Positions 1 to 9,950 of a stretch of DNA of 9,950 bases are shown here, piece after piece. Positions within the stretch are counted from its first letter, which is position 1; every line of letters starts with the position of its first letter. Made by a program: the position numbers and the translations under genes. Origin of the DNA: Treponema sp. (GTDB lineage Bacteria > Spirochaetota > Spirochaetia > Treponematales > Treponemataceae); NCBI GenBank assembly GCA_021442965.1, contig JABUUX010000044.1:1-9950 (forward strand). The letters run 5' to 3'. The notes beneath the pieces were generated by a model. The model was not told where the DNA came from, ran no database searches, and saw only the letters and a list, made by a program, of their open reading frames with translations.

Positions 1-333
1 GATAAATTCGGATTTCAGAAAGTTGCCATTACGCTTCGTTCTTCAATCAATGCAAACCGCAATGACTGGCAGGCTTTACTTTATGACGGAACAGATTTCT
101 GCTTTTCAAAAAAATACGAAATGTATATTGTGGACCGTGTAGGCGGAGGAGACAGTTTTGGTGGCGGATTGATTTATGCGCTCTTGAATGGAAAATCTAC
201 TCAGGACGCTGTAGAATTTGCCGTTGCCGCAAGCTGTTTAAAACATTCTATCGAAGGTGATTACAATATGGTCAGTGTAGATGAAGTGGAAAAACTTGCT
301 GCAGGAAACGGAAGTGGAAGAATTCAAAGATAA
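1..333 (+). CDS. kdgK: 2-keto-3-deoxygluconate kinase (PfkB family), C-terminal part
   Basis: The gene enters from the left edge in frame 1; the last 110 residues are present and the stop is TAA at 331-333. It phosphorylates 2-keto-3-deoxygluconate to the 6-phosphate with ATP in the cytoplasm, the step before KDPG aldolase in hexuronate and pectin breakdown. Seen directly: the PfkB C-terminal signature [18 protein letters not shown] at fragment residues 45-62. Its GGGD replaces the usual GAGD, and Asp51 of the fragment should be the catalytic base. The following [12 protein letters not shown] and the ending GSGRIQR are what I know from KdgK-type rather than ribokinase- or fructokinase-type members. 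The N-terminal sugar-binding half lies outside the window. It converges on the GH130 gene and shares a terminator with it. The KdgK assignment within PfkB is strong but rests on memory of the family, not a search. Confidence 0.88.
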
Positions 334-358
334 AAATAGTTTATAAATCTGATAGGAT

Positions 359-399
359 AAAAAAAAACTCCGTGGAAAAATTTCTACGGAGTTTTTTTT
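359..399. terminator. Bidirectional intrinsic terminator between kdgK and the GH130 gene
   Basis: The stem is CTCCGT (368-373) with ACGGAG (386-391), extended inside by GAAA (375-378) with TTTC (381-384). It is flanked by nine A (359-367) and eight T (392-399), so an RNA from either strand gets a GC-containing hairpin followed by a U-run. It can end kdgK on the plus strand and the GH130 transcript on the minus strand. Confidence 0.9.
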
Positions 400-450
400 C
401 AAAATACACTTTTATATATTCTGAATTATTCTTTACGAATTATGCATTCA

Positions 451-1470
451 CTAAAACTTTCCTTCGTTTCCGTCGTTTCCTACAAGTTCGTTGTGTTCTT
501 TAATAAACTTAACTGTTTCGTCGACCGTAGTAAAACAAAGCCCTACAACAGTGTCTGCACAGCCGTAGTAAATGGCAATACGTCCTGTATCCTGATCTGC
601 AAGGGCAGCAACCGGGAATGCTACATTCGGTACAAATCCTGTTGTTTCATATGGTTCCTCTGGGGTAAGCATATAAGCACCAGAACGGTACAATACCTTT
701 GAAGGACAGTCTCGGTCCAGGATGGCTGCGCTGAAGGAGTATACAAATCCGTCACAAGTTGTTGCTACTCCGTGGTAGAATACAAGCCAGCCTTCATCAA
801 TTTCGATTGGGGCAGGGCCTGTTCCAATTTTTACACCCTGCCACCAGGCTGAACCACCACGCTGCATAACAAGACGATGTTCACCCCAGTATTTCAAGTC
901 AGGGGACTGAGAAAGAAGAACATCACCAAATGGAGTGTGTCCGGAATCTGAAGGTCGGGAAAGCATGATATATTTATTGTTAACTTTTCGAGGGAAAAGA
1001 ACTCCGTTTCTATTAAACGGTAATGTAGGATTTTCCATTCTTGTGAATTCTACAAAGTCCTTTGTTTTAGCCATACAAATAGCAGCACCGTCAAAATCAC
1101 CGCACCACATAATGTAATAGGTATCATCAATTTTTATACAACGCGGGTCATATGCGTAGTAAGGATCCCATGGGTTTCCGTTTTCATCTTTCATGTGGAT
1201 TTTTTCCTTCTGAAATTCCCAGTGGATGCCGTCTTTTGAGTCTCCTACATAAAGGAATGGGCGTGCAGTGTAGTCTTCGCATCGGAATACACCTTTGAAA
1301 GCTCCTTTCCAAGGTACAACGGCAGAGTTGTAAATACGTCCCATTCCAGGGAACGGGTTTCGTCCAATTACAGGGTTTGCACTGTAGCGCCAAACAGGAA
1401 GATTCCAGCCTTCAGGTTTATCCTGCCATGGCATGTTAGGAATTGATTCTCCATTGATGATTTTACTCAT
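451..1470 (-). CDS. GH130 family beta-mannoside phosphorylase
   Basis: A 339-residue protein without a signal peptide, so cytoplasmic. GH130 enzymes cleave beta-mannosides, most by phosphorolysis, giving mannose 1-phosphate. The N-terminal run with NPVIGRNPFPG, RIYNSAVVP and GVFRCED (residues 32-66) and SKDGIHW (78-84) matches the mannooligosaccharide/N-glycan mannoside phosphorylase branch (subfamily 2) as I remember it, and the length fits. Asp108 in YAYDPR is the expected catalytic acid. Arg161, Arg172, Lys214 and His233 (FPRKV, LSRPSD, GVKIGTG, FYHG) are candidates for the phosphate site, favouring phosphorylase over hydrolase. The start is supported by GAGAGG at 1477-1482, six bases upstream. 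The stop is TAG. It stands alone with its own promoter and ends at the terminator shared with kdgK. The exact substrate linkage (beta-1,4 or beta-1,2, chain length) cannot be read from sequence alone. Confidence 0.88.
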   Translation of the reverse strand: MSKIINGESIPNMPWQDKPEGWNLPVWRYSANPVIGRNPFPGMGRIYNSAVVPWKGAFKGVFRCEDYTARPFLYVGDSKDGIHWEFQKEKIHMKDENGNPWDPYYAYDPRCIKIDDTYYIMWCGDFDGAAICMAKTKDFVEFTRMENPTLPFNRNGVLFPRKVNNKYIMLSRPSDSGHTPFGDVLLSQSPDLKYWGEHRLVMQRGGSAWWQGVKIGTGPAPIEIDEGWLVFYHGVATTCDGFVYSFSAAILDRDCPSKVLYRSGAYMLTPEEPYETTGFVPNVAFPVAALADQDTGRIAIYYGCADTVVGLCFTTVDETVKFIKEHNELVGNDGNEGKF

Positions 1471-1527
1471 TTTTTTCCTCTCAAAGTAAAAAGTCTTAAT
1501 TATTCACTTTTTCTTGTGAACACTTTC

Positions 1528-1556
1528 AGATTACTTCAGTATTATTAATCTGTCAA
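1528..1556 (-). promoter_or_regulatory. Promoter of the GH130 gene
   Basis: On the minus strand a perfect -35 TTGACA (1551-1556) is followed after 17 bases by TAATCT (1528-1533), a poor -10 matching consensus at three of six. Transcription would start near 1521, giving a leader of about 50 bases. Inside that leader is an inverted repeat TTCAC-N8-GTGAA (1503-1520), which could be an operator or a weak hairpin. A strong -35 with a weak -10 suits an activated or regulated sugar gene, but that is inference. Confidence 0.55.
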
Positions 1557-1644
1557 GTGAAATTTACCTAAAAAATAAAAGAAATTTAAGTAAAATATAG
1601 TTAATGTTTTAATTCTATTTAATAATGTTATTTTAAAAGAAAAA

Positions 1645-1653
1645 TGTTATACT
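1645..1653 (+). promoter_or_regulatory. Extended -10 promoter of rlmJ, start point predicted on the ATG
   Basis: TGTTATACT contains a TGn extension plus TATACT (1648-1653), five of six against TATAAT. No convincing -35 is seen at the right distance (around 1625-1631 is only AT-rich), as is common for extended -10 promoters. The usual seven-base distance from the hexamer puts the first transcribed base at about 1660, which is the A of the rlmJ start codon, implying a leaderless mRNA. Confidence 0.55.
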
Positions 1654-1659
1654 TTTCTT

Positions 1660-2532
1660 ATGCTAAGTTATCAGCACGCTTTTCATGCGGGAAATCATGC
1701 AGACCTCCTGAAGCATTTTGTTCTTTCTCAGGTACTGCTTCATATGAACAAAAAAGAAAAACCTTATACTTTTATTGATACTCATTCCGGAAACGGATTA
1801 TACAGTATGAAGGATGAAAGGGCTCTTAAAACCGGAGAGGCGGCTTGTGGTATTCAAAAACTACTTTCGGTGGATAATACAGATTTCCCCAAATCTTTGT
1901 GTGATTATTTATGCAAAATCAAATCCTATACAGATTCATTGTTGTATCCGGGTTCTCCTTTAGTTGAAATGGAGTATTTAAGAAAACAGGACAAACTTTT
2001 TCTTTCTGAATTGCATCCTGCAGAAAATGAGCTTTTAAGAATTAATACACAAAATTATAGAAAACAGGATACATGTCAGGTTCAGGTAAAAAAATGCAAT
2101 GGTTTTAATTTATTAAAAAGTCTTACTCCTCCAGAAACAAAAAGAGGTGCGGTTTTAATTGATCCAAGCTATGAAGAACTTTCTGATTATGACAATGTTT
2201 CGGATTCCGTTTTACATACTTTTAGAAAATGGAGTGGCGGTGTAATAATGGTATGGTATCCGCTTTTGTCATACAGGTTGTCTGTTATAGAAAATATGGT
2301 GGAACGGATTACAGAAGGTGTTCATGTAATTTTTCCTAATACCGAAGTAAATGATTTTAGATTATGTGTTGCGCCTGAATCTGAACATGAAGAAACAGAA
2401 CTTACTAAAACTAAGACCCCAAGGCTATATGGAAGTGGTATTCTTGTAATTAATACGCCTTGGCATCTTGTGGAAACAATGGAAGAAGTTATTCCTGTTT
2501 TGGAAAAAATCTTGTTTAGAAATGCAGCCTGA
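1660..2532 (+). CDS. rlmJ: 23S rRNA (adenine-2030-N6)-methyltransferase RlmJ
   Basis: A 290-residue SAM-dependent methyltransferase, about the length of the E. coli enzyme. RlmJ makes m6A2030 in 23S rRNA during ribosome assembly. Diagnostic features: the N-terminus MLSYQHAFHAGNHADLLKH, nearly that of the E. coli protein; SAM motif I DTHSGNG (40-46); YPGSP (96-100); SELHPAE (116-122); catalytic motif LIDPSYE (166-172, Asp168); VWYP (198-201); and GSGILVINTPW (258-268). The catalytic motif reads DPSY rather than the usual DPPY. The start at 1660 is fixed by the family N-terminus and by the lack of any in-frame start upstream. No Shine-Dalgarno precedes it, and the promoter sits directly before it. 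The gene is monocistronic and its last 17 bases overlap the end of the convergent barrel gene. Family certainty is high; activity with the Ser substitution is likely but unproven. Confidence 0.94.
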   Translation: MLSYQHAFHAGNHADLLKHFVLSQVLLHMNKKEKPYTFIDTHSGNGLYSMKDERALKTGEAACGIQKLLSVDNTDFPKSLCDYLCKIKSYTDSLLYPGSPLVEMEYLRKQDKLFLSELHPAENELLRINTQNYRKQDTCQVQVKKCNGFNLLKSLTPPETKRGAVLIDPSYEELSDYDNVSDSVLHTFRKWSGGVIMVWYPLLSYRLSVIENMVERITEGVHVIFPNTEVNDFRLCVAPESEHEETELTKTKTPRLYGSGILVINTPWHLVETMEEVIPVLEKILFRNAA

Positions 2533-3046
2533 GCCCGCTTTCTACAGGAAAGAAAAGATTTATTGCTGAACTCCCGGTTTTAAGATTTGTTGCAAACACA
2601 GGAGCGGCTGCAATTTGCAGGTAGTATTCCATAAAGCCGTCAAAAAAATGCCAGTTAAGACCTAAAAAAGCCCTGAGTCCGGCATCAAGATTTAACATTT
2701 GGTTTTCCCCAAGTCTGAAATCTGCCGTAACACCTGTTCCGCCGTAGCAGTTCATAATGTTTATAAGTTGCTTTTCAAAAATCCAGTAGTCAAACGTTAA
2801 GTTCAATCCAAAAAGAAATTCGTTTTTTGTTTCCTCAAAATCAAAGCCAACAGCGTAAACTGCAGGAAATCTTTCTGTTCTGAAAGTACCGGTAATATTT
2901 TCTCCCATAATAAAATCAGGATTTGATGTATTTTCTGATAAGGGAAAAGAAATTCCAGGTTTTGCAGATATCTGGATTCCAGCTCCAAGAGCAAATATTT
3001 GGGAGGTAAGAAAGAAAAATGAAATTAGAAAGAGTGTTTTTTTCAT
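2516..3046 (-). CDS. Small outer-membrane beta-barrel-like protein (unknown function)
   Basis: A 176-residue protein. Residues 1-19 form a clear signal peptide (KK, a hydrophobic run, then IFA before LG), giving a mature part of about 157 residues. That is the size of an eight-stranded barrel. The mature part is rich in short alternating aromatic/hydrophobic stretches, Gly and Asn, has no hydrophobic helix, and ends GLRLHF. A C-terminal Phe on an amphipathic strand is the classic signal for BAM-dependent insertion in the outer membrane. I do not recognise a named family, so the function is unknown. It is the last gene of the PBP/ParB-like operon, 12 bases after the ParB-like stop. No good Shine-Dalgarno is visible, suggesting translational coupling. 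The stop at 2516-2518 lies inside the 3' end of rlmJ on the other strand, and no terminator follows. Alternative: a periplasmic beta-rich protein. Confidence 0.75.
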   Translation of the reverse strand: MKKTLFLISFFFLTSQIFALGAGIQISAKPGISFPLSENTSNPDFIMGENITGTFRTERFPAVYAVGFDFEETKNEFLFGLNLTFDYWIFEKQLINIMNCYGGTGVTADFRLGENQMLNLDAGLRAFLGLNWHFFDGFMEYYLQIAAAPVFATNLKTGSSAINLFFPVESGLRLHF

Positions 3047-3058
3047 TTTAGTTTATCT

Positions 3059-3457
3059 TTATTTCTTCTTGAAAAAATCAATTATTTTTTGAAACAGGCG
3101 CTTGAAAAAATTAATAATTCGCATAAGAAGGGAAGGGTGTTTCAGACGTTCGAGTCTTCTGTAGCCTTCCATAAGCTCTTCTTCAGTGAATTCTTTTCTC
3201 TGGTTATTTTCTTCCAGTTCCATTTCAAGCTTTTCTATTTCTGTTATATTATCAACCATGTTGGCATTGATATTGGTCCAACCGATTTGTCTTGCTGCTT
3301 CCAAACGACGTTCACCTGCAATTAGTTCATATTTTTTTGTAATGGTAATTGGATTCATAAGACCATAAAGCCTTAAGCTTTCTTTAAGGTCATCAAGGTT
3401 TCCTAAATCTTTGCGAACTCTTTTTTTTACTTTAATTTTTGATACAGGTACAAGCAT
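3059..3457 (-). CDS. ParB N-terminal-domain protein with C-terminal amphipathic helix, no HTH
   Basis: A 132-residue protein. Residues 1-65 carry the ParB/Srx fold: VPVSKIKV, LKESLRLYGLMNPITI (25-40), and the nucleotide-binding box ELIAGERRLEAAR (44-56) with the GERR motif that binds CTP in true ParB proteins. Residues 82-95 (EENNQRKEFTEEE) match the ParB segment leading into the helix-turn-helix, but the helix-turn-helix and the dimerisation domain are absent. Instead residues 108-132 form a basic amphipathic helix with hydrophobic pairs II, FF, LF, II, FF at 114, 117, 121, 125 and 128, separated by polar or Lys/Arg residues, ending KKK. This resembles membrane-targeting tails. It starts 3 bases after the PBP stop, with GGAG (3464-3467) six bases before the ATG. 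I infer a membrane-associated nucleotide-switch protein acting with the PBP. It is not a plausible chromosome segregation ParB. The function itself is unknown. Confidence 0.8.
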   Translation of the reverse strand: MLVPVSKIKVKKRVRKDLGNLDDLKESLRLYGLMNPITITKKYELIAGERRLEAARQIGWTNINANMVDNITEIEKLEMELEENNQRKEFTEEELMEGYRRLERLKHPSLLMRIINFFKRLFQKIIDFFKKK

Positions 3458-3460
3458 GTT

Positions 3461-6040
3461 TTACTCCATAAGGAAGTTATAGTCCAAATCATCATGAATA
3501 TCCTCATGAGTTTCCTCAGGATAGTAATCAGAATCTTCCTCAGTGCTGTTTATATCATAATCTACTAATGCATAATTGTCATCTAAAAGGTCCCAATTTA
3601 TTGTTAGAGGACTTGTATCTACGGGGAGAATAGGGCGCTGTCCTGAACGGTACATTTCTTTTTGAATACGATATTCCCCAAGCACTGAACCAGTTTTATT
3701 TGTATGAATAGGACAAATTTGAGTTGGTTGTGTTCCTTCAAGGAACCACTGTGTTGTTTTGTGTTCTCCACATGCGTCTGAAAGTACCATTCCTGATGTT
3801 GAACAAACAGTACATTCAATAACTCCTGAAAGAGGTTTTGGGAAATCTTTGGAAATCATATCTTTATGTATTTTACTCATGTAGTCTCCCCAAGCGTGTC
3901 CGGCAAGGGTTGCACCTGTGATGTTAAGTCCTAAAGATTGCCCCGGTTTATCGAATCCAAACCAGAAGGCTGCAGTATAATACGGAGTATATCCGCAAGT
4001 CCATGCATCAGCCCAGTTTTGTGTTGTTCCGGTTTTTCCAGCGGCAGGCATTACATAAGTTTTTCCACTTTCTGTGGTGTATTTGAATTTATCTCTTTGT
4101 CGCCATAAAGTTCCTTTTTGAACTGTCTGTTCAAGAAGTTTGGTCATAACAAAGGATGTTTGAGGTGTGATAACTTGAATATTCTGTCCTTTTGCTGCCT
4201 GTTTTTTTCTTATTTCAAGTTCCGGATTCAGAATAACGTTTCCGTTTTTATCTTCCACAGTTCTTATGGCAATAGGTGTAACTTCTTTTCCTCCGTTTGC
4301 AAAAATAGCGTAAGCTCTAGCAAGTTCAATAGGGCGAACAGAACAAACACCAAGTCCAATAGGATATCCTGGAACAAAACCTCGGGATGGAAGTTCTTTT
4401 TCGGATATGCCAAGAAGGCTTACGGCACGGTTAATTGCAGCTTCAAAACCAATTCCATCCAGAACTTTAAGTGATGGTACATTCATTGATGTACACAATG
4501 CATACCATAATTGAACATCACCTTCCCAAACACCTAAAAAGTTTTGTGGAATGTATGGTTTACCGTCTGCTGTATAGAAAACAACCGGCGAGTCTGAAAT
4601 TTCTGTGGCTGGAGTAAACTTTCTGGAATCGATGGCGGCAGAGTAGTATAGCGGTTTAAATGTTGAGCCTGGTTGAAGTATAGACTGTGTTGCACGAATC
4701 AGTTCGTTTTCACCTTTTTCATATTTGCTTCCGCCTACTATAGCGTCTATGTATCCTGTTTCACTGTCCAGAGCAATCATGGTTCCTTCAATAGTTGTTT
4801 TTGCATTGTCCTGTTTTGTTTTTGTGTTTGCACGGTTTATGATGTCAGTTTTAAGAGATTCGTTTCCTGTCATAAGGGAAATGATATCCAGAACAGGATT
4901 GACTTTTTCCATGTATTCTGAGTTTGCTATGTTTTCTGCGCGCTGTTCTGAAACTTTAAGTTCCGGAATATTAAATACCAGAGAAAGAAGTTCTGTAAGT
5001 GGAACATAAGTATTAAAAGCTACATCAGATTTTCTGGAATGTTCGCGCTGGTAACGTGAATTACCTTCTGTAATCCAATACTGCATAACTTCATCTGCAA
5101 CAGCCTGGTGTTCCAGATTCAGTGTTGTGTTAACAGTAAATCCGCTTGTGTAGATATCATCTGACCCGTAAATAAGGCTTCCCAGTTCACGTCGTACATA
5201 TTCGCTGAACCAAGGAGCCTGATCTTCACGCATCATATATGCAGATGAGTTTGTTCTGGTGTAGTCAAAATTTGCCCAATAGTCTTCAAAAGAACGGTCA
5301 GCTTCTTCCTGTGTAATGTATCCTGCGTCGACCATTGAAGCAAGAACATATTTTTGTCTGTCTCTGGCACGGTTAGGGTGATCAAAAGGATTGTAATGTG
5401 CCGGATTTGAAAGTTGAATTACCAGGATGGCAGATTCCGCAGGAGTAATTTCTGTTGCACTATGCCCGAAGTAAAATTTTGATGCTGCATTTACACCATA
5501 GGTTCCGCCACCAAAGTAGATTTTATTCAGATAAAGTTCCAGAATTTCATTTTTTGAATAACGGCGTTCCATTTGTATGGCCCACCACAGTTCCTTCATT
5601 TTTCTGATAATAGCTTTAAATCCTGAGCGTTCTGTACGGTCACAGTAAAGTGTTCCTGCAATCTGCTGGGTAAGTGTAGATCCACCCCCAAGTGAGATAT
5701 GAAAAACCTGTCCAACTACGGCACGAACCAAAGCCTTGAAACTGTAGCCTTTATGAGAAAAGAAAATGCGGTCTTCTCGTGTAATGAGAGCATCAATCAT
5801 GTGCTGAGGAAGATCCTGATAACTAATGATTTCACGTTTTTCGTCTGAAGAAAATTCAGTAATTAGTTCACCGTTAATGTCCAGAAGTTTTGTTGGAAGT
5901 GCTGTTTCAAATTCTGTAATGTATTCAGTATTTTTTATATTTTTTGTCTGTGCAAGACCAAGTCCCAGTCCTGCACCAACGCATACTGTTCCAACTATAA
6001 GAAGGCAAAGAAAAACAACGCCAGAAATTTTTACTCTCAT
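3461..6040 (-). CDS. mrcA: Bifunctional class A penicillin-binding protein (PBP1A type)
   Basis: An 859-residue enzyme that polymerises lipid II into glycan strands and cross-links the peptides on the outer face of the inner membrane. Residues 5-30 are the single membrane anchor. The GT51 glycosyltransferase has REDRIFFSHKG (88-98, catalytic Glu89), GGGSTLTQQIAGTLY (118-132), RKMKE (146-150) and ILELYLNKIYFGG (166-178, Glu168). A roughly 95-residue helix-rich linker (about 320-415) leads to the transpeptidase, with PGSTFK (457-462, Ser459 nucleophile, Lys462), SMN (518-520) and AAGKTGT (666-672). All catalytic motifs are intact. A four-Cys segment (743-776) of the kind common after PBP1A transpeptidase domains precedes a strongly acidic tail: from residue 815 on there are 17 Asp/Glu and no Lys or Arg. 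It is the first gene of an operon with the ParB-like and barrel genes. The ATG is the only possible start, with no Shine-Dalgarno and the promoter directly in front. Confidence 0.97.
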   Translation of the reverse strand: MRVKISGVVFLCLLIVGTVCVGAGLGLGLAQTKNIKNTEYITEFETALPTKLLDINGELITEFSSDEKREIISYQDLPQHMIDALITREDRIFFSHKGYSFKALVRAVVGQVFHISLGGGSTLTQQIAGTLYCDRTERSGFKAIIRKMKELWWAIQMERRYSKNEILELYLNKIYFGGGTYGVNAASKFYFGHSATEITPAESAILVIQLSNPAHYNPFDHPNRARDRQKYVLASMVDAGYITQEEADRSFEDYWANFDYTRTNSSAYMMREDQAPWFSEYVRRELGSLIYGSDDIYTSGFTVNTTLNLEHQAVADEVMQYWITEGNSRYQREHSRKSDVAFNTYVPLTELLSLVFNIPELKVSEQRAENIANSEYMEKVNPVLDIISLMTGNESLKTDIINRANTKTKQDNAKTTIEGTMIALDSETGYIDAIVGGSKYEKGENELIRATQSILQPGSTFKPLYYSAAIDSRKFTPATEISDSPVVFYTADGKPYIPQNFLGVWEGDVQLWYALCTSMNVPSLKVLDGIGFEAAINRAVSLLGISEKELPSRGFVPGYPIGLGVCSVRPIELARAYAIFANGGKEVTPIAIRTVEDKNGNVILNPELEIRKKQAAKGQNIQVITPQTSFVMTKLLEQTVQKGTLWRQRDKFKYTTESGKTYVMPAAGKTGTTQNWADAWTCGYTPYYTAAFWFGFDKPGQSLGLNITGATLAGHAWGDYMSKIHKDMISKDFPKPLSGVIECTVCSTSGMVLSDACGEHKTTQWFLEGTQPTQICPIHTNKTGSVLGEYRIQKEMYRSGQRPILPVDTSPLTINWDLLDDNYALVDYDINSTEEDSDYYPEETHEDIHDDLDYNFLME

Positions 6041-6049
6041 ATCATTAAT

Positions 6050-6078
6050 ATTATAGTAAATATATACGCTTCTCTCAA
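6050..6078 (-). promoter_or_regulatory. Strong promoter of the PBP / ParB-like / barrel operon
   Basis: On the minus strand TTGAGA (6073-6078) is followed after exactly 17 bases by a perfect TATAAT (6050-6055). Only nine bases separate the -10 from the PBP start codon at 6040, so the leader should be about 0-3 bases. An out-of-frame ATG at 6043-6045 opens a two-codon reading frame, ATGATATGA, whose stop overlaps the PBP ATG. Confidence 0.8.
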
Positions 6079-6124
6079 GTTAATGGGAATTATGGAAAAA
6101 TTGATTTTGAAAACTAAAAAGGAC

Positions 6125-6153
6125 AAAAAAAAAGGCACGGCGGGTACCGTGCC
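6125..6153 (-). terminator. Intrinsic terminator of the 8382-6266 envelope operon
   Basis: Read on the minus strand: GGCACGG (6153-6147), a six-base loop, CCGTGCC (6140-6134), then nine T (6133-6125). This is a seven-base-pair GC-rich stem with a perfect U-run, about 110 bases after the PEGA-gene stop. It separates that operon from the PBP promoter. Confidence 0.92.
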
Positions 6154-6231
6154 CATGCCCATCAGGCAACCAAGGGCATGGGTGGGAGGGGAAAATGCCC
6201 TTGGTATTTTAAATATCGACACCAGGGGGCA
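6152..6231. repeat. GC-rich block of competing inverted repeats with a G-quadruplex motif
   Basis: In the 225-base gap between two operons, a block far richer in GC than its surroundings holds overlapping inverted repeats. ACCAAGGGCA (6169-6178) pairs with TGCCCTTGGT (6196-6205), ten perfect base pairs. CCCATGCCC (6152-6160) pairs with GGGCATGGG (6174-6182), nine perfect base pairs. A near copy of the first arm, ACCAGGGGGCA (6221-6231), can also pair with 6196-6205. The second pairing excludes the first and also takes two bases of the terminator arm at 6147-6153. The loop of the ten-base stem is G-rich on the plus strand and, with the stem, gives four G-runs (6174-6191). On the minus strand this is the 3' untranslated RNA of the PEGA operon. 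It could be a regulated terminator, an RNA-stability element, a small RNA released from the 3' end, or an interspersed palindromic repeat. Confidence 0.75.
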
Positions 6232-6265
6232 AATTCTTGAGTGATTTTATAAAAAAAATGAAAAA

Positions 6266-7249
6266 TTAATCCTCTCCGTCAGAAATGTACAAATCAACTT
6301 CAAAATTTGCTTTATATGTTTTACCTTTTTGTGCATTTAATGCTCTTATTACTTCGTAGTCTCCTATAACGAATTTAACAGAATGTTCGCCTTCCGAAAT
6401 GATGAATTCACTGCCAATTTCTTTTACAAGGTTACCGTCCAGATAGACTTTAGTTCCCGATGGAGCATTTATAAGTAGAGAAGGTTCTACGCCTCGTAAT
6501 TCTACTTCAAGTTCTGTGTTCTTTGCCTGTTCTATGTAGAAAGTACGTACTTCGTTTCTGTAATTTTCTGAGATAATAGAAAGGTCGTGAGAGCCTGCTG
6601 TAAGAATTATATCTTTTGACAGGTCTGAAATTTTATCATCAATAAATACTGTAAGAGGCTGCAGGTCTTTTTCTGTAGTTTTTAGATTTAGTTTAAGTCT
6701 GCCCTTATCCGAAAAAATTGGGCGTGCTGAAACCTGAAGTTCGGCTTCCAAAACTTCTTCCGGGATACCTTTCATTACAGGCTGAAATTTAAGAAAAATA
6801 TTTGTACATTTTGGATTCAAAATCGGTTCAATTTTAGCTGAATACTGGTTTTCTTTTATGCTGTTGTCTTTTGTAAGAGGAACCTGAATAATCCAGGAAA
6901 GGCGACCTGGAAGAGCATTTACATAAAATCTGGTTCCCGAATAATCAATTTGAGAAGGTTTTGGTTCGGGAGAGATTTTATCGTAAATGGTTGCTGCTAC
7001 AGAGTTCCGCCATGAAGCAATGGATTCCGGAATAACGATTTTAATTTCAATGCCTTCAAGGAATGTACGGTCTTCGGGAAGAATAACTGCAAAAGCATCG
7101 TAAATTTTACACGAAACGGGCGAAGATTCCAAAGTGGTTTGAGATAAATCTGCAATATGTGTTTTCCGTACACGAAAACTTTCGGAATAAACGCCAGTTA
7201 GAAGAGAAAAAATAACTGTAAAGGCAAAAAATCTTTTAGTTGCCATCAT
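6266..7249 (-). CDS. Periplasmic PEGA-repeat protein (unknown function)
   Basis: A 327-residue exported protein. Residues 1-22 are a signal peptide (MMATKR, a hydrophobic run, VYS before ES) with no lipobox Cys. Residues 25-180 are a beta-rich region I do not recognise. Two successive beta modules follow: about 183-252 and about 256-322. The second is a clear PEGA-type repeat: PSLLINAPSGTKVYLDGN, then a turn, EGEHSVKF, and a final strand pair. PEGA modules are small beta domains of surface or periplasmic proteins, often in cell-wall contexts; their ligand is generally unknown. The start overlaps the end of the M23 gene by 14 bases, with no Shine-Dalgarno, so translation is probably coupled. 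Met1 or Met2 could be the start. It is the last gene before the terminator at 6125-6153. I infer a partner of the M23 peptidase. Function unknown. Confidence 0.82.
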   Translation of the reverse strand: MMATKRFFAFTVIFSLLTGVYSESFRVRKTHIADLSQTTLESSPVSCKIYDAFAVILPEDRTFLEGIEIKIVIPESIASWRNSVAATIYDKISPEPKPSQIDYSGTRFYVNALPGRLSWIIQVPLTKDNSIKENQYSAKIEPILNPKCTNIFLKFQPVMKGIPEEVLEAELQVSARPIFSDKGRLKLNLKTTEKDLQPLTVFIDDKISDLSKDIILTAGSHDLSIISENYRNEVRTFYIEQAKNTELEVELRGVEPSLLINAPSGTKVYLDGNLVKEIGSEFIISEGEHSVKFVIGDYEVIRALNAQKGKTYKANFEVDLYISDGED

Positions 7250-8177
7250 TTTTTGATTTTACAGGCAGAAGCCTTTCCGGATCTTCTGCTACGCCTCCAA
7301 ATCTAATTTCAAAATGCAGGTGAGGTCCAGTTGCCATACCGGTCTGCCCTACATATCCAATTACATCACCTTTTTTTATCATATCACCGTTTTCTATGCA
7401 CATTTTGGAAAGATGGGCATAGACACTGGTCATAGAATTGTCTGAGTGTTTAATAATTATATAGTTTCCAAAAACGGAATCATTTTTTTTTGCAAGAGAC
7501 ACAATGCCGGATTTTACGGCTCTTACCGGTGTACCTTCAGAGGCGGCAAAATCAACACCTTTGTGCTGTTTCCATTGACCAGAAAAAGGATTTTTTCTTA
7601 GTCCAAAACTGGAAGATATATAGGTTTGAGAGGCGTCCAAAGGAAGACCCAAAGAAGCATCCAAAAAATAAGCTCTTTCAGTAGGTGTGAACCTTTGGTT
7701 TTTTAAAAAATAAAAAGTCTCATTCCCAATATTATAACACACATTTTCAGTTTGTAAATTTTCAATTCTTCCGTTACGCAAAATCGTGTTTAGAGAGTCT
7801 TCTGAAGATACGCTTATAAAAAGTCCGGGTACAGTTGGTAAAATGATTTCTTTGTTTTTTATATCGGAGGCACTGTTTTGTATGTGATTTATAGTAGAAA
7901 TGGTTTCATAAGGAATATTGCACCGGGCAGAAAGTGCCAGAAGGTTAGTGTCTTTTGGAACGTTGCATTTGAAAAATATCATCAGAGTATCTTTACCGGA
8001 AGAAAGAAACTGATAGTTTTCATCGACTATGGCAGAATATTCTTTAAAGATTTCATCTCTTGATATAAGCTCCGGAATATAGGGGAGTTTTTCTTTGTTA
8101 ATTATATGAGGGGAGGCAAAGGTTTCTGAAACGAAAAAAAATGCTGTCAGCAGGTACTGTAAGCATTTCTTATTCAT
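7236..8177 (-). CDS. Secreted LysM / M23 peptidoglycan endopeptidase
   Basis: A 313-residue protein. The signal peptide spans about residues 1-21 (KK, hydrophobic run, TFA before SP). A LysM-like module lies at about 74-120 (DTNLLALSARCNIPYETI, INHIQN, EIILPTVPG) and should bind glycan. The M23 LytM-type metallopeptidase domain lies at about 186-305: SSSFGLRKNPF, HKGVDF (His205, Asp209), YAHLS (His255) and GPHLHFEI (His286, His288). All zinc ligands and the catalytic His are present, so it should be an active endopeptidase cutting peptide cross-links in the periplasm rather than a degenerate activator. The ATG overlaps the stop of the upstream small membrane gene by 8 bases, and AAAGGA lies eight bases before it. 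The downstream PEGA gene overlaps its end. Role inferred: wall remodelling in growth, division or flagellar passage. Confidence 0.94.
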   Translation of the reverse strand: MNKKCLQYLLTAFFFVSETFASPHIINKEKLPYIPELISRDEIFKEYSAIVDENYQFLSSGKDTLMIFFKCNVPKDTNLLALSARCNIPYETISTINHIQNSASDIKNKEIILPTVPGLFISVSSEDSLNTILRNGRIENLQTENVCYNIGNETFYFLKNQRFTPTERAYFLDASLGLPLDASQTYISSSFGLRKNPFSGQWKQHKGVDFAASEGTPVRAVKSGIVSLAKKNDSVFGNYIIIKHSDNSMTSVYAHLSKMCIENGDMIKKGDVIGYVGQTGMATGPHLHFEIRFGGVAEDPERLLPVKSKNDGN

Positions 8178-8382
8178 TAGTTTTTCCTTTACGGATACGA
8201 AAAATTATTTTCTTTGTTATAAAGAAAACTGCTGCCAGACTGATAAGCAGCAGAACAAAGAATGTGTAAAGGTTTTTGTTTGATGTAGCAAATTTCCACA
8301 GTGGCCAGACAATAATAAATGAAAGCCCTGCACATGCCAGTAGAATAAGAATAAAGCTTAAAAACGAAATAATTTTTTTCAT
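8170..8382 (-). CDS. Small two-helix inner-membrane protein
   Basis: A 70-residue protein: short basic start MKK, transmembrane segment about 5-30, a polar loop KFATSNKN (30-37), a second segment about 39-56, and a basic tail KKIIFRIRKGKTNE. The charge pattern predicts both ends in the cytoplasm. I do not recognise a family. ILLACAG around Cys17 is faintly lipobox-like, but the sequence stays hydrophobic after it, so a lipoprotein is less likely. It is real rather than a chance ORF: its stop overlaps the M23 start by 8 bases (ATGAATAA), it encodes a coherent topology, and it fills the space after the ferredoxin terminator. Oddly, that terminator's U-run ends four bases before the ATG, and no Shine-Dalgarno is visible. 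Likely an accessory of the M23/PEGA operon; function unknown. Confidence 0.75.
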   Translation of the reverse strand: MKKIISFLSFILILLACAGLSFIIVWPLWKFATSNKNLYTFFVLLLISLAAVFFITKKIIFRIRKGKTNE

Positions 8383-8386
8383 AGAT

Positions 8387-8420
8387 AAAAAAATAAAGGG
8401 CTCTGGTGAACAGAACCCTT
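8387..8420 (-). terminator. Intrinsic terminator of the ferredoxin gene, abutting the next start codon
   Basis: On the minus strand AAGGGTTCTG (8420-8411), loop TTCAC, CAGAGCCCTT (8405-8396) form a ten-pair stem with one G-U, followed by T, A and seven T down to 8387. The start codon of the small membrane gene begins at 8382, four bases later. Transcription of that operon must therefore come from readthrough or from a promoter overlapping this hairpin. Confidence 0.88.
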
Positions 8421-8441
8421 GAAATGAATGAATAATAAAAA

Positions 8442-8612
8442 TTATTCTTCAGCGATAGCTTCTGTAGGACATGTTGAAGCACATGAGCCACAGCTGATGC
8501 ATGCATCAGCATCGATTACACGTTTTCCGTCTTTTTCAGAAATAGCTGAAACAGGACAGTCACCTTCACAAGCACCGCAGTTTACACAAGCGTCAGAAAT
8601 TTTGTATGCCAT
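8442..8612 (-). CDS. 2[4Fe-4S] ferredoxin
   Basis: A 56-residue protein, MAYKISDACV to ending EAIAEE, with two CxxCxxCxxxCP clusters: Cys9, 12, 15, 19 and Cys38, 41, 44, 48. Each set gives three ligands to one cubane and one to the other, the classic clostridial ferredoxin fold with internal two-fold symmetry. It carries low-potential electrons in the cytoplasm, for example for pyruvate:ferredoxin oxidoreductase or hydrogenase, and points to an anaerobe. It is acidic, as usual for the family. The start is set by a strong AAGGAG (8619-8624) six bases upstream. It is a single gene with its own promoter, a structured leader and an intrinsic terminator. Nothing nearby identifies its electron donor or acceptor. 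Confidence 0.96.
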   Translation of the reverse strand: MAYKISDACVNCGACEGDCPVSAISEKDGKRVIDADACISCGSCASTCPTEAIAEE

Positions 8613-8631
8613 AAAAGACTCCTTGATGGGC

Positions 8632-8679
8632 TCCGTTTTAAACGGACTTATTATTTAAAGGCGCTCCACATTAAGTGGA
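8632..8679 (-). promoter_or_regulatory. Two inverted repeats in the ferredoxin leader
   Basis: Downstream of the predicted start point the leader carries TCCAC-N5-GTGGA (8665-8679), almost at the RNA 5' end, and TCCGTTT-T-AAACGGA (8632-8646), a seven-base perfect palindrome seven bases ahead of the Shine-Dalgarno. They may be stabilising 5' hairpins or, for the second, a protein-binding operator. I see no known riboswitch pattern. Confidence 0.5.
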
Positions 8680-8688
8680 ACTTTTTTA

Positions 8689-8717
8689 AATATAAACAAT
8701 AATATCTAAAAATTCAA
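8689..8717 (-). promoter_or_regulatory. Promoter of the ferredoxin gene
   Basis: On the minus strand TTGAAT (8712-8717; four of six) and TATATT (8689-8694; five of six) are 17 bases apart, within an AT-rich stretch. The start point should be near 8682, giving a leader of about 70 bases. The rest of the gap to deoC (8718-8786) shows no gene and no clear terminator for deoC. Confidence 0.6.
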
Positions 8718-8786
8718 CAATGAAATATTTTTAAGTATTTTATTTATCCCAAATTATTAATCCTTAGAAAACCTACAAATGTAATG

Positions 8787-9497
8787 TCATTCAAACGTTT
8801 TTATGATGTTTACTCCACTGGATGTTCCTATTCTTGTGGCTCCGGCATTTATCATATTTATGGCAGTTTCTGCACTGCGGATTCCACCGGAAGCTTTGAC
8901 CCCCATTTTGGGACCAACAGTTTCTCTCATAAGACGGATGTGATGTTCCAAAGCTCCATTTGGAAGTGGTGTTCCGTCCGGAGCTTTAGGTGTCCCAAAT
9001 CCTGTAGATGTTTTTACAAAATCTGCACCGGCTTCTTTGGACAAAATGCAGCATCTTTTTATGGTGTCGTCATTCAAATAGCAGGTTTCAAGAATTACTT
9101 TTACGGTAATTTCTTTGCCAAGTTTTTCTCCCGTTGTTTTTGCAATTTTTACAACTTCAGAAATATCTGTTCCAACTTCTAAAAAGCGTCCGTCTAAAGC
9201 GGCAGAAATGTTTATTACCATGTCTATTTCATCAGCACCATTTTCTATAGCGTGTTGTGTTTCTGATACTTTGTCTTTTGTAGAAGTAGCACCTAGTGGA
9301 AACGCAATAACTGTACAAACTTTTACAGAAGAGTCTTTCAGATTTTCTGCAGCACGGGTTACAAAAACTGGGTTTATACAGACTGATGCAAAATGCCATT
9401 CTTTAGCTTCTTCGCAAATTTTATCAACCTGTGAACTTGAAATGTTAGGTGCCAGAATAGTATGGTCTATCATGGCTGCAATTTCTTCTTTTTTCAT
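8787..9497 (-). CDS. deoC: Deoxyribose-phosphate aldolase
   Basis: A 236-residue class I aldolase that splits 2-deoxyribose 5-phosphate into glyceraldehyde 3-phosphate and acetaldehyde in deoxynucleoside breakdown (cytoplasm). Motifs: IDHTILAPN (10-18), SVCINPVFV (38-46), VIAFPLGA (63-70), GADEIDMVINI (87-97, Asp92), DFVKTSTGFG (159-168, Schiff-base Lys162), GVKASGGIRS (199-208, Lys201) and GTSSGV (224-229, phosphate site). All catalytic residues are present. Compared with the usual STGFxGGGATVEDxxLM, this protein has about ten extra residues (KAPDGTPLPNGALEHH around 171-186) after the Schiff-base lysine. AGGA (9503-9506) lies five bases before the ATG. The gene starts only 13 bases after the U-run of the greA terminator, so it has no room for a promoter of its own downstream of that hairpin. 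No other deo gene is in the window. Confidence 0.96.
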   Translation of the reverse strand: MKKEEIAAMIDHTILAPNISSSQVDKICEEAKEWHFASVCINPVFVTRAAENLKDSSVKVCTVIAFPLGATSTKDKVSETQHAIENGADEIDMVINISAALDGRFLEVGTDISEVVKIAKTTGEKLGKEITVKVILETCYLNDDTIKRCCILSKEAGADFVKTSTGFGTPKAPDGTPLPNGALEHHIRLMRETVGPKMGVKASGGIRSAETAINMINAGATRIGTSSGVNIIKTFE

Positions 9498-9510
9498 ATT
9501 TATCCTATGT

Positions 9511-9553
9511 AAAAAAAAATAACCACGAAAGAACTTTGACTTCCTTCGTGGTT
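9511..9553 (-). terminator. Intrinsic terminator after greA
   Basis: On the minus strand AACCACGAA (9553-9545) pairs with TTCGTGGTT (9529-9521), nine pairs, extended past an A-C mismatch by GAA/TTC around a seven-base loop. It is followed by A and nine T (9519-9511). It lies directly ahead of the deoC ribosome-binding site. Confidence 0.9.
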
Positions 9554-9578
9554 TGTTTTCTAACTACTGCTTAAATAA

Positions 9579-9950
9579 TTAGATTTTTGCAGCAGTAATT
9601 TCTTTAATTGTACAGTTGTATTTGTGTTCATTGATTGTGAAGACACAAACATCACCTTCTTTTTTATCCATGATGGCATTTCCAAATGGAGACATGTAGG
9701 AAATGATTCCATTGTCAGGATCAGATTCCCATGGACCAAGAATAGTGAACTTTTCATCTTTACCTGTTTCATTGTCTGTTATTGTAACAGTTGTAGCAAA
9801 AGAAACGACAGAAGTTGTAAGAGTTGTAGGGTCAAATACTACAGCACGTTTAAGTTCGCTTTGAAGTCTTGTAAGGTCCAATGAAAGCATATGCTGCTTT
9901 TCTTTTGCGGCTTTGTATTCAGCGTTTTCTTTTAAGTCTCCCTTTTCACG
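9579..9950 (-). CDS. greA: Transcription elongation factor GreA, C-terminal part
   Basis: The gene runs off the right edge; 123 residues and the TAA stop (9579-9581) are present, in frame up to base 9950. GreA enters the RNA polymerase secondary channel and stimulates cleavage of backtracked RNA. The fragment begins REKGDLKENAEYKAAKEKQ, the tip and descending arm of the coiled coil. The two acidic tip residues needed for cleavage (Asp5 and Glu8 of the fragment, in GDLKENAEY) are there. Then come the linker and the C-terminal FKBP-like domain with GPWESDPDNGIISYMSPFGNAIM (fragment residues about 72-94) and the final KEITAAKI. At least the first part of the coiled coil is missing. As established knowledge, some spirochaetes encode a much longer GreA with an N-terminal extension; whether this one does cannot be seen here. 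The internal Met at 9888-9890 is not the start. Confidence 0.95.
   Translation of the reverse strand, partial: REKGDLKENAEYKAAKEKQHMLSLDLTRLQSELKRAVVFDPTTLTTSVVSFATTVTITDNETGKDEKFTILGPWESDPDNGIISYMSPFGNAIMDKKEGDVCVFTINEHKYNCTIKEITAAKI

Follow-up and report, generated by a model that had tools for sequence, protein, structure and literature searches.

We analysed a window of 9,950 nucleotides (nt) from Treponema sp. (GenBank assembly GCA_021442965.1, contig JABUUX010000044.1, positions 1 to 9,950) and found that its minus strand encodes, at 3059..3457, a stand-alone ParB_N protein of 132 amino acids (aa) with a C-terminal amphipathic helix, as judged by its open reading frame (ORF), Pfam, homologue searches and AlphaFold2. 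Such proteins, consisting of a ParB_N domain and a tail, are a real and old family of spirochaetes. We put the chances slightly above even that the window protein is a minimal peripheral membrane protein that senses cytidine triphosphate (CTP), its tail replacing the DNA-binding and C-terminal dimerisation domains of ParB. The fold, the domain content, the conservation of CTP-contact residues, the amphipathicity of the tail, the transmembrane (TM) variants among relatives and the pairing with a penicillin-binding protein (PBP) gene in part of the phylum were all observed directly.

The ORF runs from an ATG at 3457 to a stop at 3059-3061. Pfam places a ParB_N domain (PF02195) at aa 11-85 (3203..3427, minus strand), with 45.6 bits against a cut-off of 26.3, and so assigns the protein to the ParB-CTPase fold by profile; this domain also matches ParB, Noc and PadC in structure. 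An earlier note on this DNA, made from the sequence alone, had proposed a ParB nucleotide fold with GERR at residues 48-51, lacking DNA-binding and dimerisation domains, and both proposals were borne out. The Pfam scan returned no second family at E<=0.01 and nothing past aa 85, and the helix-turn-helix (HTH) and C-terminal dimerisation domain of canonical ParB are thus absent from the 132 aa. TIGR00180 scored 57.9 bits, just below its cut-off of 58.45, and the full Noc profile TIGR04285 scored 58.6 bits against a cut-off of 315, with positions 18-111 of 255 covered. In the AlphaFold2 monomer, the best model had a mean predicted local distance difference test score of 85.2 (74.0-79.5 in the remaining four). 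It opens with a strand at residues 2-4 where Noc has an amphipathic helix, and a single helix follows the domain at residues 110-131 (block means 75-80), in agreement with the helix that the earlier note had drawn at 108-132. Fold matches (Foldseek, VIA) included ParB, Noc and PadC as well as sulfiredoxin and the free serine kinase SerK/SbnI, which share the superfamily fold; the VIA-align rows span residues 1-108, and the tail lies outside the alignment. Sulfiredoxin has a catalytic Cys, and the window protein contains no Cys. Its best sequence match in the PDB is Noc.

To establish how far this architecture extends, homologues were sought by several routes. A tblastn scan of genome contigs, which sets no length limit on the encoded protein, yielded 58 named loci, all titled Treponema, Spirochaetaceae, Spirochaetales or Treponemataceae, and in all 58 the protein encoded up to the stop measures 131-200 aa. 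Searches with the window protein and with a profile of 17 divergent members admit candidates of at most 1.75 times the query length, longer homologues being outside their reach; they returned, respectively, 1594 (at E<=0.001) and 663 matches, of which the best 120 are listed in each case. Among the matches listed, all 20 of the 20 rows that name an organism are spirochaetes, including Leptospirales, Leptonema, Leptospiraceae, Treponema putidum and Brucepastera. In a draw of 149 spirochaete genomes across the phylum, whose centre (G003) was picked because it bears the gene, 66 genomes carried a family match, 65 of these at >=87 bits and one, cut off by a contig end, at 70.9 bits. The next listed matches in the draw reach at most 64 bits, cover the model in part and belong to open frames some 230-330 aa long. 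In each of the first four genomes tested there are exactly two ParB_N proteins, a short family member and a second one whose frame is about 320 aa long, and 17 of 20 further genomes also carry a longer canonical-type ParB (G003 is in both sets). No second ParB_N protein was found in the other three (G029, G138, G143) of these 20 genomes, which may be incomplete. The possibility that the gene is a truncated ParB, which homologues bearing an HTH would have favoured, was rejected, given the short form in 58/58 named loci and the separate full ParB in four genomes. A phage gene was also rejected, since viral contigs scanned with the window protein yielded no relative, in a search that reaches close relatives only. 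Where relatives among the matches listed carry database names, these are ‘ParB N-terminal domain-containing’, ‘ParB/RepB/Spo0J family partition protein’ or ‘chromosome partitioning protein’; names of the ParB or partition type are probably misleading for members of this family.

The nucleotide site was compared by aligning family members with canonical ParBs from four of the family's own genomes in three MAFFT modes. Positions were transferred from Caulobacter ParB to the canonical ParBs through the common motifs QPR, SI..G, GERR and ENxQR, using Caulobacter letters that we assume to be correct. Mutants of Caulobacter ParB at R60, S74, G79, R103, R104, N136 and R139 show weak or absent CTP binding, whereas those at Q58, E135 and E102 bind CTP and do not hydrolyse it; Q58 and E102 are suggested to be catalytic, and PadC, with Phe at both of these positions, is termed catalytic-dead (PMC8367383). 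The seven binding positions correspond in the window protein to R13, S27, G32, R50, R51, N84 and R87, with R60 aligning to R13 in 3/3 modes. These residues are present in 118, 118, 119, 119, 119, 119 and 119, respectively, of 119 distinct sequences, the absent cells at R13 and S27 being gaps, and all seven class I CTP-contact positions (C-motif and P-motifs 1-3) are accordingly conserved. In P-motif 2 (GERR, aa 48-51, 3305..3316, minus strand; motif names from PMC8367383), G48, R50 and R51 occur in 119/119 sequences, as do E83, N84 and R87 in the P-motif 3 region (ENNQR, aa 83-87, 3197..3211, minus strand), where E83 is the equivalent of E135.

The suspected catalytic residues behave differently. 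Q58 aligned with K11 in two MAFFT modes and with a gap in the third, and Gln is found at position 11 (P-motif 1) in 0/119 sequences. Glu at position 49 is present in 58/119 and missing from 61/119, with an uneven distribution: 52/56 of the window-plus-named sequences have it compared with 6/63 from the phylum draw, where it is replaced in 57/63 and Tyr (33) and Phe (12) dominate. As the contact residues are invariant and the suspected hydrolysis residues are not, we predict that the family binds CTP but doubt that most members hydrolyse it, such activity being probably weak or absent in them. The window protein, which lacks the P-motif 1 Gln but retains the P-motif 2 Glu, might be a partial exception. 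The earlier note had pointed to ParB CTPases as switches; its ParB nucleotide fold is supported, and the word ‘CTPase’ is doubtful.

Two further positions distinguish the family from canonical ParBs: R15 (118/119) and E80 (119/119) are family-specific residues, the four canonical ParBs having Glu or Phe, and Ala, respectively. These differences bear on whether the protein might form mixed N-domain dimers with the canonical ParB of its genome and thereby tether ParB-parS to the membrane, in the manner of a split Noc. A longer ParB is indeed available for this in the 4/4 and 17/20 genomes above, and Noc itself, controlled by CTP, couples DNA to the membrane (PMC8429893). Nevertheless, three of the 20 genomes, of which completeness was not reported, yielded no such partner, and residues that are invariant in the family and different in the canonical proteins fit self-pairing better; we regard mixed dimers as quite improbable. 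Among the ten ORFs of the window, to which the search for parA was confined, Pfam gave no parA match.

The C-terminal tail was examined as the up to 30 residues past position 107 in each of the 119 sequences, of which the best 18-residue stretch was scored; the sequences are related and not independent, and the statistics are descriptive. In the window protein, the cationic amphipathic helix (aa 108-132, 3062..3136, minus strand; residues 110-131 in the AlphaFold2 model) has a best hydrophobic moment (muH) of 0.81 and a net charge of +4, equalled by 0/500 shuffles. Across the family the median best moment is 0.65 and the median net charge +3, and 109/119 tails reach p<=0.05 against 500 shuffles of their own residues. 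The HeliQuest discriminant D exceeds 1.34 in 83/119 tails compared with 44/467 control C-termini, which belong to other ORFs of the window and of the phylum-draw loci, and the combination of muH>=0.6 and charge>=+2 is found in 73/119 tails but only 1/467 controls. The earlier proposal of a membrane-type tail thus goes beyond chance both in the window protein and in the family. Moreover, six relatives of about 200-225 aa (L050, L055 and L133 of the 119 sequences; P0175, P0180 and P0215 of the 240 listed proteins) have two hydrophobic segments of TM strength added behind the retained helix region, and it is difficult to see why such a hairpin would be added if the protein did not work at the membrane. 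From its composition, the tail is a membrane-type and probably membrane-attaching helix. Amphipathic helices also make coiled coils and other interfaces, and the helix was modelled in the monomer only, so the tail could instead serve self-assembly or docking on a cytosolic protein; given its strong positive charge, its bulky hydrophobic face and the TM hairpins of some relatives, however, we find this alternative very doubtful.

Immediately upstream, on the same strand, lies the gene of a class A PBP of the PBP1A family (859 aa, 3461..6040, minus strand; Pfam; TIGR02074, 587 bits), and the ATG at 3457 follows its stop after 3 nt, as the earlier note had stated. Its further idea of a conserved pairing proved true of one part of the phylum. 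The PBP gene is directly upstream and co-directional in 57/58 named loci, which amounts to 57/57 testable ones, as the sequence of L054 begins 72 nt before the gene; the two genes lie 1-130 nt apart. A full upstream flank of 6 kilobases (kb) is available for 48 named loci; genes in the same orientation there comprised PBP (48), M23 (28), PEGA (26) and DeoC (3), no other upstream gene of the window being retained as often as the PBP. In the phylum draw, by contrast, the PBP was adjacent in 15 of 65 loci and non-adjacent in 45, the remaining 5 being impossible to score. Four of the draw genomes with the pair, in which the gene sits on contigs of 0.91-0.96 megabases, show a gap of 5 nt, followed downstream by glucose-6-phosphate isomerase-, dicarboxylate transporter- and NADH oxidase-like genes (names read from the sequence). 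This order is presumably that of Borrelia burgdorferi BB0731-BB0728.

The pairing raises the question of whether regulating the class A PBP is the dedicated role of the protein, its amphipathic helix binding the TM segment or stub of the enzyme and setting the place or time of its action. Beyond the constancy of the pair in the testable named loci and the four large-contig genomes, adjacency to the PBP takes four changes on an N-domain tree (107 columns; 113 labelled rows; 56/113 inner branches open), a number as low being reached in 0/500 shuffles, and the direction of the changes cannot be read from the tree. Against this, 45/60 testable draw loci have no adjacent PBP, and most of these loci keep the tail: at p<=0.05 (300 shuffles) it was amphipathic in 54/55 named loci with PBP, 10/13 draw loci with PBP and 38/45 draw loci without. 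L137, L139 and L140, which resemble P0142 of T. putidum, sit among the PBP-linked rows without the pairing, a placement that may be a false long-branch join. The cytosolic stub of the PBP is also short, the nearest Met lying 0-18 residues before the TM segment in 66/71 partner PBPs (starts were estimated, and some have further Mets upstream), which weakens the earlier suggestion of contact with the PBP N-terminus. The protein is therefore not a dedicated PBP subunit as a general role, which we reject for the phylum; across the family the tail is kept more steadily than the PBP, which is a partner of particular lineages. For the PBP-linked lineages, a partnership of the dedicated kind is, in our view, an unlikely alternative, and the candidate partner at the membrane that we place first for treponemes is the class A PBP.

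Taken together, our best reading of the family is a PadC/Noc-like CTP sensor, an N-domain dimer with its tails on the inner membrane that is linked to the PBP in some lineages. In ParB and Noc, CTP brings the N-domains into engagement (PMC8429893, PMC8367383). By analogy, CTP binding would cause two N-domains to engage, and this would be the main route of dimerisation, since a C-terminal dimerisation domain is lacking. The dimer would present two cationic amphipathic helices together, giving higher avidity for the inner membrane, and from this architecture we infer that CTP would raise membrane affinity. On the membrane, the dimer would serve envelope machinery as a localised scaffold or regulator, a role that would be tied genetically to the upstream class A PBP in treponemes and Borrelia-like genomes and to different partners elsewhere. 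Most members probably hydrolyse CTP weakly or not at all, so release would follow its level or exchange. Binding of CTP, dimer formation, attachment to the membrane and any influence on the PBP are all predictions of this scheme.

Several points weigh against it. The short members L030, L039 and L042 have a C-terminal stretch exceeding the same TM threshold, and with such TM-like ends the mode of membrane contact may vary; 10/119 tails fail against their own shuffles, 36/119 do not reach a D of 1.34, and docking or coiled-coil formation are other functions that the helix could have. The short stub before the PBP TM segment would, if the starts are right, leave little cytosolic surface for contact, and with the PBP adjoining in only 15/65 draw loci a PBP-specific mechanism is not general. 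Finally, 17/28 purified ParB-fold proteins bound no nucleoside triphosphate in vitro, and a section heading of the same survey says that sequence is no reliable predictor of specificity (PMC12704722).

Several known systems resemble the protein. Like the window protein, Noc combines a ParB-type N-domain with a membrane-targeting amphipathic helix; its helix, however, is N-terminal and its DNA-binding and C-terminal domains are present, whereas in the window protein the helix is C-terminal and neither domain exists. In Noc, the binding of CTP, and not its hydrolysis, turns on membrane binding through this helix, which is restrained in the apo state (PMC8429893). PadC of M. xanthus recruits ParA to bactofilins and is called a CTPase (PMC9712426). 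Its crystal numbering (295-387) puts the domain deep in a longer protein, and the P-motif 2 Glu is absent; in the window protein the domain comes first, the membrane-type helix last, and the Glu is retained. With canonical ParB/Spo0J, the window protein shares the N-domain fold and all seven CTP-contact residues, but not the HTH, the C-terminal dimerisation domain or the P-motif 1 Gln. The short ParB folds of phages and archaea are similar stand-alone folds of about 100 aa, whereas members of the present family come from spirochaetes and carry a membrane-type tail. Among bacterial single-domain ParB-fold proteins, most are described as long, the forms of about 100 aa belonging to phages and some archaea (PMC12704722). 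The fold is thus already known, and a stand-alone ParB_N domain with a membrane-type tail in spirochaetes is a new variant of it, not a new fold.

In the parts consulted of that 2025 survey, membrane binding is mentioned for Noc alone, other uses of the word being nitrocellulose and reference titles, and the terms ‘amphipathic’, ‘spiroch’ and ‘transmembrane’ do not occur (PMC12704722). No account of the family was found among the papers listed in literature searches or in the consulted parts of PMC8429893, PMC8367383, PMC9712426 and PMC7586716, the T. denticola ‘ParB-like nuclease’ TDE1162 of the last of these not having been compared. TDE1162 is reported to be 85.78-fold up in a prtP-deficient mutant (PMC7586716). 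CTP switches are few, and Noc, the sole membrane-acting one named in the parts of the sources consulted, also binds DNA. A search by locus tag found no papers for BB0731 or BB0732, which we take to be the tags of the Borrelia burgdorferi pair. If our reading is true, a conserved DNA-free form of 130 aa would represent a minimal CTP-switch architecture and offer a small protein for direct biochemistry, and in spirochaetes a candidate regulator would be known whose gene adjoins that of a peptidoglycan synthase. In its most far-reaching form, which we consider rather unlikely, the protein would be the smallest CTP-controlled membrane switch, used across much of the phylum: a CTP-dimerised ParB N-domain that inserts its paired tails, free of DNA, doing for CTP what Arf and Sar1 do for GTP, and coupled, in treponemes and Borrelia-like spirochaetes, to a class A PBP so that peptidoglycan synthesis is informed of CTP supply or cell-cycle position.

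Further upstream of the PBP, the window encodes a PEGA-domain protein (6266..7249, minus strand; Pfam) and an M23 peptidase (7236..8177, minus strand; Pfam), co-directional upstream in 26/48 and 28/48 full-flank named loci, respectively. Downstream, RlmJ lies within 6 kb in 30/41 named loci with a full downstream flank, and the protein at 2516-3046 (minus strand), which has a weak, sub-cut-off match to DUF3996, is downstream in 6/41. Names of the gcv, citrate synthase and rRNA methyltransferase type are readings of the sequences and not family matches. In L152 and L099, gcv-type genes stand in one tightly spaced run between the PBP, further upstream, and the ParB-like gene, which suggests an insertion into the pair. 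In eleven loci, the place of the PBP as a neighbour is taken by a large protein (585-660 aa, one of two clusters, tagged ‘M1like’) that lies within 60 nt on the downstream side; a protein of 627-660 aa without a Pfam family recurs as the direct downstream neighbour in L098, L107, L135, L146 and others, in some with an overlap of 4 nt. Three of these large proteins were submitted to Pfam, and with L098 and L146 unmatched and L124 giving sub-threshold matches only, one of them to peptidase M1, the ‘M1like’ tag is weak. Ten representative non-PBP neighbours, these three among them, gave Pfam matches to FMN-binding, NfeD, cNMP-binding, C39-peptidase and GlmU-like hexapeptide families, with weak outer-membrane and other matches, and no common function was found among the ten.

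Elsewhere in the window, a GH130 gene (451-1470, minus strand) encodes a protein 96-99% identical to copies in four Treponema loci from horse faeces (L003, L007, L010, L057), across which the neighbours of the gene are about 45-80% identical. At the DNA level, the three copies that were aligned on their own show about 83-85% identity, which speaks for strong conservation and not for a very recent transfer.
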